20,498 bases of DNA, taken from IMG/VR virus record IMGVR_UViG_3300010885_035726, positions 1 through 20,498 of that record. One strand, given 5' to 3'. The notes beneath the pieces were generated by a model. That model saw only the letters and a list, made by a program, of their open reading frames with translations, was not told the DNA's origin and made no database searches. Every line of letters begins with the position of its first letter. Within the stretch, counting starts at the first letter, position 1. Both the position numbers and the translations under genes were made by a program. Of this stretch, positions 3,567 through 12,283 are shown piece after piece. This DNA comes from a virus.

Positions 3567-3809
3567 ATGTGTAAATGTGATTTGACTGATCGGCTTGTTG
3601 CGGAACAGTTTGACATTAGTTATCGCAATCCAAAAGCTGTGGTTGCACCGTTGATTAAAACAAAACTCATAAAAATCAAACCAAAGACTACTTTGGATGA
3701 ACGAGATGTATTGTTTTTTAATGCTGGTCGCCATGCTGGCGGTCATCGTGATCGAGCTGCTATTAAAGCGCATGAAGAGTTACAAAAACTGTTTGAAGAC
3801 GTAGCATGA
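3567..3809 (+). CDS. hypothetical protein upstream of the C5 methyltransferase
   Basis: An 80-residue unrecognised protein. It begins CKCDLTD, with two Cys in a C-x-C pattern and no further Cys. A basic middle (IKTKLIKIKPKTTLDERDV) and a His/Arg-rich stretch (AGRHAGGHRDRAAIKAHEE) follow. The ribosome-binding site AAAGGAACACA sits directly before ATG 3567. The stop overlaps the start of the methyltransferase gene (ATGA), so the two are translationally coupled. Confidence 0.7.
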   Translation: MCKCDLTDRLVAEQFDISYRNPKAVVAPLIKTKLIKIKPKTTLDERDVLFFNAGRHAGGHRDRAAIKAHEELQKLFEDVA

Positions 3810-4366
3810 AAATCGGTTCGCTCTTCAGTGGGTACGGGGGCCTCGATTTGGCTGTTACTGCAGTTACGGGTGCTGAAGTTGTGTGGCATTGTGAATGGGA
3901 TGATGCGCCGGCAAAGATTTTGGAAAAAAACTTTCCAGGTGTTCCCAACTTTAGGGATGTGTCTACTGTTGATTGGTCGGCGGTTGAACCTGTTGACATT
4001 TTGACGGGTGGTTTTCCTTGTCAGGATTTGTCTTTGGCTGGTAAAAGGGCTGGTATGCGTGAAGGAACACGTTCTGGTTTGTGGTCAGAGTTTTTTAAAG
4101 CGATTGAAATTATTAAACCTAGATTGGTGGTTATTGAGAATGTCCGTGGAATCCTTTCAGCGTCAGCACATGGCGACGTGGAACAATGCGAGTGGTGTGT
4201 GGGTGACGGATCAGGTGAACCTTCTTTGCGCGCACTCGGTGCTGTTCTCGGCGACTTGGCCAGTATCGGGTATGACGCTAAGTGGACAGGCGTTCGAGCT
4301 GCAGATGCCGGCGCACCCCATAACCGTTTCAGAGTTTTCATCATCGCCTATCCTGCCCACTCTTAA
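3806..4366 (+). CDS. dcm: DNA cytosine-C5 methyltransferase, catalytic part (motifs I to VIII)
   Basis: A 186-residue polypeptide holding the AdoMet-binding and catalytic half of a C5 cytosine methyltransferase. Motif I is LFSGYGGLDLA (6-16). Motif IV is GGFPCQDLSLAGKR (68-81) with catalytic Cys72. Motif VI is ENVRG (111-115). The motif VIII region is GAPHNRFRVFIIA (169-181). It ends at YPAHS, before the target-recognition domain and motifs IX and X, so it cannot be a complete enzyme alone. The missing half is supplied by the next gene, which begins inside this one in another frame. Typical one-chain phage C5 enzymes are roughly twice this length. Likely roles are protection from host restriction or modification of phage DNA. 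Confidence 0.88.
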   Translation: MKIGSLFSGYGGLDLAVTAVTGAEVVWHCEWDDAPAKILEKNFPGVPNFRDVSTVDWSAVEPVDILTGGFPCQDLSLAGKRAGMREGTRSGLWSEFFKAIEIIKPRLVVIENVRGILSASAHGDVEQCEWCVGDGSGEPSLRALGAVLGDLASIGYDAKWTGVRAADAGAPHNRFRVFIIAYPAHS

Positions 4367-5249
4367 AGCGAGAGATTCGCAAGCCGAAGGTTATGAAGCT
4401 GGATTGCGTAGGGCTATGCCACAAGTGGGAACGATTGTTAAGGGCATTGTTGATGGTGATCCACGGGTTATGGATGTTCCTGAAGAGTCTTTGTTTCGTT
4501 CTCCTAAAGCGAGTGAAGGGCAGGGTGGGGCATTAGGTGAAGCTGAAGCTTTGAAGCGGGGTAATACTGTTGGTGTTCGTGATCAGGTCATGGATTTGGT
4601 TTCGGCTCAGGGGTTACGAGTTTCTCGTGTTGCTGATAATGATTTGTTGCCTACTCCTAACACGATGGAGCATCGTGAGATTAAAACGCCTGAGCAGATT
4701 GCTGAGTTGAAAGCTAAGTCACCTGGTGGTTACAGGGACTTGCGTGAGTCCGTGATAAACGATTTGTTGCCTACACCGATTGTGCGTGATTATAAGGATG
4801 GGTCGTCTGAAGTTTTGCGTGATGGTGAAGTGCAGGTTGATACTGTTGCTCGTGCCATTTTTAATAGTGGTGAAGTGCTGCTTGGAACACCAAGAACATC
4901 GTCAGCTAACGCATCAACTGCTAAACAGATTGATTCTGGTGCGCCAAAGTCACGCCTAGAAGATCAGGTAGAGTTACCGACAACAACGTGGGGTAAGTTT
5001 CAGCCAGCGATTACACGGTGGGAGCAAGTGTTGGGTCGCCCTGCACCAGCCCCAACCAAACCTGATGGTAAGGATGGCTCTCACAGGCTCTCATCGGCGT
5101 TTACAGAGTGGATGATGGGTTTACCTGAAGGTTGGATCACTGGTGTTGGTTTGACCCGTGTGGAAGAGTTGAAGGCTTGCGGTAATGGTGTTGTGCCACA
5201 GCAAGCAGAGATGGCTTTGCAAATACTACTTGAAGGGGTAGAAATTTAA
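4170..5249 (+). CDS. C5 methyltransferase partner: target-recognition region and motifs IX-X
   Basis: A 359-residue protein in the +1 frame relative to the catalytic gene, overlapping it by 197 bases. Its N-terminus (MATWNNASGVWVTDQVNLL, then TWPVSGMTLSG and SEFSSSPILPT) resembles, from memory, a segment often found in phage methyltransferase-associated proteins. The middle carries degenerate LPTP repeats (61-64, 159-163, 199-203; variants at 107-113 and 237-241). The C-terminus has WMMGLPEGW (314-322) and the motif X ACGNGVVPQQAEMAL (336-350) that completes a C5 methyltransferase. The start is uncertain: ATG 4170 gives the family-like N-terminus but lacks a good ribosome-binding site, while in-frame ATG 4140 follows GGTGG. 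Alternatives are a frameshifted product or a sequencing error (see findings). Confidence 0.82.
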   Translation: MATWNNASGVWVTDQVNLLCAHSVLFSATWPVSGMTLSGQAFELQMPAHPITVSEFSSSPILPTLKARDSQAEGYEAGLRRAMPQVGTIVKGIVDGDPRVMDVPEESLFRSPKASEGQGGALGEAEALKRGNTVGVRDQVMDLVSAQGLRVSRVADNDLLPTPNTMEHREIKTPEQIAELKAKSPGGYRDLRESVINDLLPTPIVRDYKDGSSEVLRDGEVQVDTVARAIFNSGEVLLGTPRTSSANASTAKQIDSGAPKSRLEDQVELPTTTWGKFQPAITRWEQVLGRPAPAPTKPDGKDGSHRLSSAFTEWMMGLPEGWITGVGLTRVEELKACGNGVVPQQAEMALQILLEGVEI

Positions 5250-10497: not shown

Positions 10498-11772
10498 ATG
10501 ACTAAATGCTTGACGGACTTCACTGCTGTCAAAACAACTAACGCAACCGTGTTTCATGGGTCTAACCTTGACGTGTTGCCTTTTATGGCTGATAACAGCG
10601 TTGACTCTATTGTTACTGATCCTCCTTACGAGTTGGGTTTTATGGGTAAGTCGTGGGATAGCACCGGCATTGCTTACAATGTGGAAGTTTGGACAGAGTG
10701 TTTGCGTGTGCTGAAACCTGGTGGGCATCTGTTGGCTTTTGGTGGTTCACGCACTTGGCATCGTATGGCTGTCGCTATTGAGGATGCTGGTTTTGAGTTG
10801 CGTGACAATATTGCGTGGTTGTATGGGTCAGGGTTTCCTAAATCGCACAACATAAGCAAGGCGATAGATAAAGTGCAGGGTGGTCAAGTTAAGGTTGGTA
10901 AAGCCTTCAAGGTTGCTGGCGAGTATGGTGATAGGGATTTGCGTGACCCAGAAACACAGGGTGCAAGTCGTGAGGAGATGCGCCATAAAGCAGATACTGA
11001 TGATGCTAAGAAGTGGTCTGGTTGGGGAACAGCACTAAAGCCTGCGTTTGAACCAGTTGTTGTTGGTCGCAAACCGTTGTCTGGCACTATCGCTGAGAAC
11101 GTGCTGGAATGGGGTGTTGGTGGCCTAAACATTGATGCAAGCAGGATTGGAATGACTGCCGAAGACAAAGAAAAGAGTGCAAACAACTGGAAGCCACACG
11201 GCTATGAAAGTAAAGAAAACATTTACGAGATTGGCATTAAGGTATTAGCATCAAACCAGAAAGAAGGTCGCTGGCCAGCAAATCTTATTCTTGACGAATA
11301 CACCGCAGGACTACTAGACGAACAAAGTGAAGATGTTAGTCGTTTCTTTTATGTTGCTAAGGCTTCTAAACGTGACCGCAACGAAGGATTAGACGAACTA
11401 CCTGAAACACAAGCAAGTAAAATGACTGGGAGAAGTGAAGGATCAGCAGGCTTAGTAAGAATTAGAGAAGATGGTTCTATTGGTGAAAATCCTTATGCAG
11501 GTAAATCAGGAGCAGCAAAGAACTTTCATCCAACAGTCAAACCAACAGACCTAATGCGTTACCTAATCAAACTCGTAACCCCTGCTGGTGGTGTTGTGCT
11601 TGACCCATTCACAGGATCAGGTAGCACCGGCAAAGCAGCCCTGTTAGACGGTTACCAGTTTTTAGGTATCGAAATGACAGACGACTACCTGCCAATAATT
11701 CAAGGCAGACTTGACTGGGCTGAACAACAAGCCACACAAGCCGATGAAAAAGAAAACGAGAAACTGTTTTAA
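10498..11772 (+). CDS. DNA amino-methyltransferase (N6-adenine or N4-cytosine)
   Basis: A 424-residue AdoMet-dependent DNA methyltransferase. The catalytic motif IV TDPPYELG (40-47) comes first and the AdoMet motif DPFTGSGSTGKA (369-380) last, preceded by FHPTVKPTDLM, which is the beta-class order. LKPGGHLLAFGG (70-81) is a further core strand. DPPY fits both N6-adenine and N4-cytosine enzymes; I cannot separate them. A long middle region (about 125-340) is the likely target-recognition part. Start ATG 10498 follows AAAGGGATGC. Codon style changes around 11100, from G/T-rich to A/C-rich, hinting at mosaic origin. With the C5 pair at 3806-5249 the phage has two methylation systems and no obvious partner restriction enzyme. 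Confidence 0.9.
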   Translation: MTKCLTDFTAVKTTNATVFHGSNLDVLPFMADNSVDSIVTDPPYELGFMGKSWDSTGIAYNVEVWTECLRVLKPGGHLLAFGGSRTWHRMAVAIEDAGFELRDNIAWLYGSGFPKSHNISKAIDKVQGGQVKVGKAFKVAGEYGDRDLRDPETQGASREEMRHKADTDDAKKWSGWGTALKPAFEPVVVGRKPLSGTIAENVLEWGVGGLNIDASRIGMTAEDKEKSANNWKPHGYESKENIYEIGIKVLASNQKEGRWPANLILDEYTAGLLDEQSEDVSRFFYVAKASKRDRNEGLDELPETQASKMTGRSEGSAGLVRIREDGSIGENPYAGKSGAAKNFHPTVKPTDLMRYLIKLVTPAGGVVLDPFTGSGSTGKAALLDGYQFLGIEMTDDYLPIIQGRLDWAEQQATQADEKENEKLF

Positions 11773-11954
11773 TGCCAACATACGACTACAAGTGCGACAA
11801 ATGCGGCGCAGTAAGAACGCAAACTATTGGTTTAGCTGATGTGGACACGTTTCGCGCAGTATGCGCCGAAGGTGACCTAATGCGTCGAGTTTTAGCTGCC
11901 ACCCCAATCAGTTTCAAAGGTTCTGGTTTCTACACAAACGATAAGAACAAATAA
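11772..11954 (+). CDS. FmdB-type zinc-ribbon protein with degenerate second knuckle
   Basis: A 60-residue protein opening PTYDYKCDKCGAV, the FmdB/CxxC zinc-ribbon start (Cys8, Cys11), and ending SFKGSGFYTND, also typical of the family. The second knuckle is incomplete: only Cys31 is present (RAVCAEGDLMRRV) where a C-x-x-C pair would be expected, so zinc binding would need another ligand. Such small proteins are common in actinobacteria and their phages and are thought to act as regulators, but this is not shown. TAATG overlaps link it to both neighbours. Confidence 0.75.
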   Translation: MPTYDYKCDKCGAVRTQTIGLADVDTFRAVCAEGDLMRRVLAATPISFKGSGFYTNDKNK

Positions 11955-12283
11955 TGGAATGGCACAGGCCGTGGGGCAGCTACAAGATTTTGGGAGAAAA
12001 TCCGGTTCTTGTGAAAGTCATCACTGTGAACCCACATTCACGCCTATCGTTACAAACACACGAACACCGGTCAGAAATCTGGTTCGCCCTACAACCAGGG
12101 CTACTAGCTTATGTGGATGACAACATTATTCGCATGGGTGTACTAGATCGCGTCTGTGTTCAAAAGGGTGTAAAGCACCGCATTGAAAACACAACAGATA
12201 ACCCGCTACAACTCATTGAGCTAATGTATGGCGAGTATGACGAACAAGACATTTTCCGTCACGAAGATGATTACGGCAGATAA
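11954..12283 (+). CDS. cupin of the type II mannose-6-phosphate isomerase family
   Basis: A 109-residue single cupin domain matching the C-terminal isomerase domain of bifunctional GDP-mannose pyrophosphorylase/phosphomannose isomerase enzymes. It has the signature RPWGSYKIL (5-13), then VKVITVNPHSRLSLQTHEHR (20-39) with metal ligands His36, His38 and Glu41 (SEIW), and GVKHRIEN (72-79) with His75. All ligands needed for a metal-bound sugar isomerase or epimerase are present. The family would interconvert mannose-6-P and fructose-6-P; the substrate of the phage protein is unproven. It sits between a zinc-ribbon gene and an HNH gene with TAATG overlaps on both sides, so it belongs to the methyltransferase operon. 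Confidence 0.85.
   Translation: MEWHRPWGSYKILGENPVLVKVITVNPHSRLSLQTHEHRSEIWFALQPGLLAYVDDNIIRMGVLDRVCVQKGVKHRIENTTDNPLQLIELMYGEYDEQDIFRHEDDYGR

Follow-up and report, generated by a model that had tools for sequence, protein, structure and literature searches.

Can 227 bases of viral DNA code for parts of two conserved proteins at once and, if so, are those proteins two halves of a single enzyme? The question is raised by a viral record of 20.5 kb (20,498 nucleotides, hereafter the window) that encodes terminase, portal, RusA, and YqaJ along with methyltransferase genes. An earlier note on this DNA proposed that one of its methyltransferases, a C5-cytosine enzyme, is encoded by a pair of overlapping genes and that each frame looks conserved in the shared stretch. 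We find that the overlapping gene pair is real, largely unannotated, and not an error, and that both readings are kept in phage and bacterial relatives.

Layout and Family Assignment

Both genes lie on the + strand. The first, alpha, is an ORF in frame 2 (3806..4366, 186 aa) that encodes the N-terminal half of a C5-cytosine methyltransferase and ends in ...GAPHNRFRVFIIAYPAHS followed by a stop. Frame 3, which is +1 relative to alpha, is free of stops from 4005 to 5249, has ATGs at 4140 and 4170, and reads ATWPVSGMTLSGQAFELQ...SSSPILPTLKARD, with motifs IX and X at its end. Read from the first ATG it yields beta (4140..5249, 369 aa), composed of an overlapping N-terminal segment, LPTP modules, and motifs IX and X. 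The coordinates and peptides of the earlier note, which had frame 2 ending at 4366 with motif VIII and frame 3 ending with motifs IX–X, are correct. The alpha/beta overlap (4140..4366, 227 bases) is classed as dual coding from stop counts and conservation against synonymous shuffles (below), and within it a conserved segment of the +1 reading that could be aligned across dozens of loci, beta-N, runs from 4173 to 4319 (ATWNNASGVW...SATWPVSGMTLSGQAFELQMPAHP).

Alpha matches Pfam PF00145 (E 2e-38, profile positions 1–161 of 324), NCBIfam TIGR00675 dcm (118.9 bits; cut-off 100.65), and, among PDB sequences, M.HhaI (E 3.6e-16). It carries in order motif I (SLFSGYGG, 3818..3841), motif IV with the PCQ of the catalytic Cys (GGFPCQ, 4007..4024), motif VI with its ENV (ENVRG, 4136..4150), and motif VIII (GAPHNRFRVFIIA, 4310..4348). 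Motifs IX (HRLSSAFTEWMMGLPEGW, 5082..5135) and X (ELKACGNGVVPQQAEMAL, including GNGVVPQQA, 5166..5219) of a PF00145-type enzyme are also present, but in beta rather than alpha, and their columns are nearly invariant in alignment A1. Between the overlap and these motifs beta has a variable region in which LLPTP modules start at 4644–4658 and 4764–4778 (span 4644..4778). Beta gave no useful match to Pfam, NCBIfam, or PADLOC models and no match to PDB sequences at E <= 1. It does match PHROG 1008 "DNA methyltransferase" (E 6.4e-57), as do the 78 overlapping residues alone (4140–4375; E 7.5e-8), so that the family match proposed earlier for frame 3 now rests on data, the overlapping N-terminal part included. 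Two further profiles place the chains side by side: on the single-chain profile PHROG 363 (327 positions) alpha covers 54–216 and beta, weakly, 257–312 (E 0.005), and on PHROG 116 alpha likewise covers 208–372 and beta 424–490.

Both Frames of the Overlap Are Conserved

We compared the overlap with a null in which synonymous codons were shuffled within each gene, so that neither the alpha sequence at the protein level nor codon usage changed at all. The overlap was delimited on alpha landmarks, and beta-N matches that are conditional on an open frame were left out of the tests. Across 59 loci of the split class, which has the layout of the window, the +1 frame of the overlap contains 0 stops vs. 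107.5 ± 7.4 expected, compared with 398 (362 expected) in an upstream control from the same 59 loci and 148 (243 expected) in the +2 frame of the overlap. For pairs that are 65–75% identical in alpha, +1 identity in the overlap is 0.42 (0.25 when shuffled) and the +1 BLOSUM score is 2.0 (0.3 when shuffled), whereas the upstream control reaches a +1 identity of 0.34 vs. 0.30. Reuse of the same codon at the same amino acid is 0.55 in the overlap vs. 0.33 shuffled, and 0.39 vs. 0.35 upstream. The data support the overlap as a dual-coding gene pair, with selection in both frames across relatives. The proposal that both frames are conserved over about 200 bases is thereby borne out in many relatives by stop and conservation tests alike, and the synonymous-site comparison across homologs that the earlier note suggested finds the +1 frame far more conserved than shuffles allow.

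Two cautions apply to these numbers. The loci share ancestry and the stop and identity counts are therefore not independent events, a caveat mostly answered by the upstream control, since it comes from the same genes and has equal relatedness. Similarity of the +1 peptide alone would also be little proof, because conserved residues of alpha partly dictate that peptide.

Start Sites of Beta

The likely start of beta is an ATG at 4140..4142 embedded in the alpha E-N-V codons (GAG AAT GTC, 4136–4144), with a Shine–Dalgarno-like GGTGG (4126..4130) 5′ of it within alpha V-V codons. In the window the predicted duplex energy is −5.6 kcal/mol for this ATG vs. +0.6 for the alternative ATG at 4170..4172. 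We rejected the latter as a start; it is not conserved, being usually ATA in relatives, and lacks Shine–Dalgarno pairing.

Starts in relatives fall into two groups. In the first, no stop interrupts the +1 frame as far back as an ATG within E-N-V of alpha (GAR AAT GTN); in the second, a +1 stop is followed by a GTG within L-S-A, about six codons 3′ of the ENV-ATG site. Among 114 loci surveyed, 44 have only the ENV-ATG, 51 only the GTG, 6 both, and 13 neither; 101/114 have one or the other in an open frame. The codon for Asn in the fused, GC-rich class (below) varies with the start: it is AAC in 18/20 GTG loci and AAT in 9/12 non-GTG loci, against a background of 24/127 AAT. Mean Shine–Dalgarno energies are −4.89 at the ENV-ATG of the split class (−2.20 ± 0.31 shuffled) and −7.41 at the GTG of the fused class (−3.96 ± 0.46 shuffled), with only a weak excess at the GTG of the split class (−6.07 vs. 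−5.44 shuffled); the unused ENV site of split GTG loci has −1.47. Shine–Dalgarno pairing is thus selected at the start in use and not at the other site, although only weakly so for split GTG loci. Of the two starts previously left open, "4170 (or 4140)", the survey and duplex energy favor 4140 and do not favor 4170. Beta most likely starts at 4140, with internal initiation inferred in the absence of expression data.

Three Phage loci (L082, L083, and L086, from Arthrobacter and Gordonia phages) have a GenBank beta that begins near or after the end of alpha, losing the conserved overlapping N-terminus.

Gene Arrangements among Relatives

Relatives of the window distribute the same parts over the two frames in several ways. 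The split class, with motifs IX–X and beta-N in one +1 ORF, comprises about 80–84 loci, which come from many different assemblies; most of their overlaps measure 220–260 bases. In the fused class, found in mycobacteriophages and Gordonia phages and retrieved with an alpha-frame query only, motifs IX–X are in the alpha ORF while beta-N is still in the +1 frame; its overlap contains 1 +1-frame stop vs. 24.8 expected, and +1 identity is 0.66 (0.31 shuffled), close to an alpha identity of 0.69. In the nested class, which spans many phyla of bacteria, the +1 frame holds motif IX, whereas motif X is back in alpha. The overlap from motif VI to VIII has 0 +1 stops vs. 47 expected in 65 nested genes, and just 5′ of motif X the same DNA encodes WxxEPDVGRVAxGVPxRVDR in alpha and GGQLNPTWVEWLMGFPxGWTD in +1, with identities of 0.51 and 0.50, respectively, vs. 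0.24 for shuffled +1. Beta of Paenibacillus phage Tadhana, which has the nested form, falls in PHROG 1008 like beta of the window, which links the split and nested classes by homology. The overlapping N-terminus of beta is thus conserved in split, nested, and fused forms alike, while the back half is found in either frame or split between them.

Several loci show further variation. The +1 ORF of fused loci often ends at a TAG directly before alpha-frame V-D-L-L-P-T-P (GTAGACCTGC), with differing upstream sequences (L087–L128, e.g., L088:2722–2784). Several mycobacteriophage methylases (L092, L105, L106, L110, L111, and L148) have a cysteine-rich module, GLCxHCAAALRRAxAGEPxLWNDDxCPDPNxCDTTVVDLLPTP, inserted among those of LPTP type; it perhaps binds zinc. 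In the methylase of two Gordonia phages (L117 and L119) the overlap is displaced by an insertion of ~490 bases that lies between ENV and motif VIII. Work on the ShiLan domain (PMC11855218) describes an HNH insertion that is also out of frame in phage methylases but is distinct from the overlap studied here; the Gordonia insert is possibly an element of that kind.

A Proposed Two-Chain Enzyme and Its Alternatives

Our preferred explanation, to which we assign a probability of roughly 0.8, is that the overlapping genes encode two separate chains of one C5-cytosine DNA methyltransferase, a phage variant of the enzymes typified by M.AquI and M.EcoHK31I. Ribosomes would translate alpha (3806–4366), supplying motifs I–VIII with the AdoMet site and the catalytic Cys, while others would initiate internally in the +1 frame at ATG 4140 within E-N-V, aided by the Shine–Dalgarno-like GGTGG. 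The resulting beta chain would consist of the overlapping N-terminal segment, the LPTP modules, and then motifs IX and X, and would associate with alpha to rebuild one enzyme. The target-recognition domain of M.HhaI lies at the position that corresponds to the LPTP modules. Since the modules occupy the target-recognition position of other C5 enzymes, we infer that they may serve recognition, and they probably include or replace that region.

Structure predictions are compatible with such an assembly. The predicted structure of a natural fused chain from a mycobacteriophage (L101) is M.HhaI-like over the full length, with model residues 1–370 aligning to M.HhaI 12–325 (Z 23), and its module region (191–282) is predicted to be disordered and is comparable to the LPTP region of beta. 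For beta, the overall quality of the model is poor (pLDDT 64), although the IX–X end is modeled well, and for its residues 288–369 nearly all Foldseek matches are C5 methyltransferases, although weak (E > 1, Z <= 2.7). A Foldseek search with the whole beta model recognized no known fold for beta-N, which was not folded alone. These models support, without proving, that alpha and the back half of beta form one enzyme, and a heterodimer, which no assay has addressed, fits both the distribution of motifs and the fold of the single-chain relative. Counting against the two-chain explanation are the poor beta model, the weak fold matches, the lack of a PDB sequence match for beta, the conserved +1 segment of relatives with a complete alpha, and the 13/114 loci without either expected start. 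Initiation at 4140, the heterodimer, methylation, and a recognition role for the modules are all inferred without expression, ribosome profiling, proteomics, or methylation data.

Alternatively, beta-N and the modules could form a companion protein that acts separately, in target recognition or enzyme regulation, to which motifs IX–X became attached in this phage only by frame-switching indels. We regard this as possible, if not what we expect, and it does not exclude the two-chain explanation. Beta-N is conserved where motifs IX–X are in alpha, both in the fused class and in Candidatus Bandiella (L245), and because relatives with a complete alpha conserve the +1 segment, beta-N must do something besides carry motifs IX–X. 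The earlier statement that neither polypeptide is complete alone holds for the window but not for relatives in which a complete alpha keeps the overlapping frame. A second clade, with motif VIII GV(A/P)QRRRR, points the same way. Its alpha is complete, with motifs IX and X in the alpha frame itself, and over motifs IV–VIII there is a strongly conserved +1 ORF with 0 stops vs. 66 ± 6 expected (QLTLFAxDSPA...CSLSDVLETxVPxKYYLSPKAAxGILRRAEKRG; PHROG 16143; L131–L133, L152–L163, L260–L339, and phage P1 L340:2219–2707). All 76/76 scorable IMG/VR loci found with this ORF have it in +1 inside the alpha ORF, dmt of phage P1 contains one that is open for 163 codons, and in Streptococcus phage MM1, whose alpha looks complete, both genes are annotated. 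Conservation in this clade implies that a +1 companion persists even in genes that do not depend on it for motifs IX–X. On the other hand, beta of the window and of the nested class carries essential methyltransferase motifs and so is at least also an enzyme half. A broader reading, tentative and somewhat short of an even chance, is that many phage and bacterial C5 genes carry an ancient +1 gene over motifs IV–VIII whose product is a companion subunit with its own function, kept beside a complete alpha in mycobacteriophages and in the GV(A/P)QRRRR clade including P1 dmt, and that small indels have moved motifs IX–X from one frame to the other, which would produce the nested, split, and fused forms.

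The Candidatus Bandiella locus, a bacterial gene with motifs IX–X in the alpha ORF and beta-N and PTP modules open in +1, resembles the fused state of mycobacteriophages.

A programmed ribosomal frameshift shortly before alpha ends, joining it to the back half of beta and leaving the upstream +1 frame untranslated, would account for a back half in the +1 frame and for the existence of single-chain fused relatives. However, upstream of any such shift the +1 frame lacks stops and is conserved, with selected starts and Shine–Dalgarno pairing, and beyond motif VIII both the tail of alpha and its stop differ among loci in length and sequence. Because we saw no slippery site in common and no conserved alpha end, we rejected a frameshift fusion as very unlikely. 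Conservation of alpha could in principle keep the +1 frame open by itself, leaving one gene plus a downstream fragment, and parts of the +1 peptide are indeed fixed by alpha residues (GYD aligns with GMT, and GAPH with AHP); yet synonymous shuffles, which predict the many stops and low identity reported above, refute constraint from alpha alone, codon reuse included, and we discount it almost entirely. That a sequencing error or recent frameshift split one gene has a negligible chance, even though relatives have fused chains and one phage record (GigiOuiOui) has an alpha frameshift, for the same split layout recurs in about 80 loci. The two objections that the earlier note had anticipated, a one-base error and the existence of a single fused frame in homologs, fail accordingly: the former on this recurrence, and the latter because mycobacteriophages and Gordonia phages have such single frames and yet conserve frame 3.

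Comparison with Known Systems

Two-chain C5 enzymes are already known, as are a few phage records with annotated overlapping pairs. The beta gene of M.EcoHK31I lies inside alpha, in a different reading frame. In M.AquI the larger subunit has motifs I–VIII and the smaller IX–X, and M.EcoHK31I is a two-polypeptide C5 methyltransferase with motif IX on the second polypeptide (PMC3404938). The window shares the division of motifs of M.AquI, I–VIII on one chain and IX–X on the other, but its beta differs in having LPTP modules and an additional N-terminal segment whose coding sequence shares 227 bases with alpha. With M.EcoHK31I it shares motif IX on the second chain, a likeness of motif layout only, without sequence comparison; unlike that enzyme, which has motif X on the larger chain (alpha), the window has motif X in beta, its alpha stops after motif VIII, and its beta extends far beyond alpha. 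The nested bacterial relatives do match the M.EcoHK31I layout, with motif IX in a +1 frame nested in alpha and motif X in alpha.

Among phages, both +1-overlapping methyltransferase genes are already in GenBank for Tadhana (TADHANA_54/55) and MM1 (ORF13/ORF14), whose second genes are fully nested, unlike beta of the window; the nested ORF of MM1 also lacks motif IX. In Arthrobacter phage ArV1 the genes likewise overlap at their ends, and the annotation gives them as two overlapping genes for DNA methyltransferase (067a/067b), but they have diverged from the window (beta ~30% identity). The fused methylases of mycobacteriophages and Gordonia phages (e.g., DillTech15 gp66) have an alpha ~66% identical to that of the window and a conserved +1 beta-N; unlike the window, they have motifs IX–X in the alpha ORF, and DillTech15 has a single annotated gene. 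A literature search that left most subscription journals outside found no description of this overlap, nor of dual-coding statistics, start-site switching, or movement of motifs IX–X between frames.

To our knowledge, conservation of both proteins encoded by a long same-strand overlap has rarely been established in DNA phages or bacteria. Here, one gene family shows such an overlap in several architectures, with internal starts inside a catalytic motif, and the conservation of beta-N beside a complete alpha is the most interesting point. An overlapping pair accounts for the "half" methylases, and for genes that are missing, in phage annotations; annotation rules that penalize long overlaps have been stated for the phages of one study (PMC6070908). 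The family also lends itself to studying why an enzyme that is split between overlapping genes persists in nature. In addition, it is a source of C5 methyltransferases already divided in two that could be used in targeted methylation, an application in which M.EcoHK31I has already been used (PMC3439449).

Elsewhere in the window are a second DNA methyltransferase, of N6/N4 type (10498–11772; PF01555, E 4e-32), and a small mannose-6-phosphate-isomerase/cupin-like protein (11954–12283; PF01050, E 1.5e-21).
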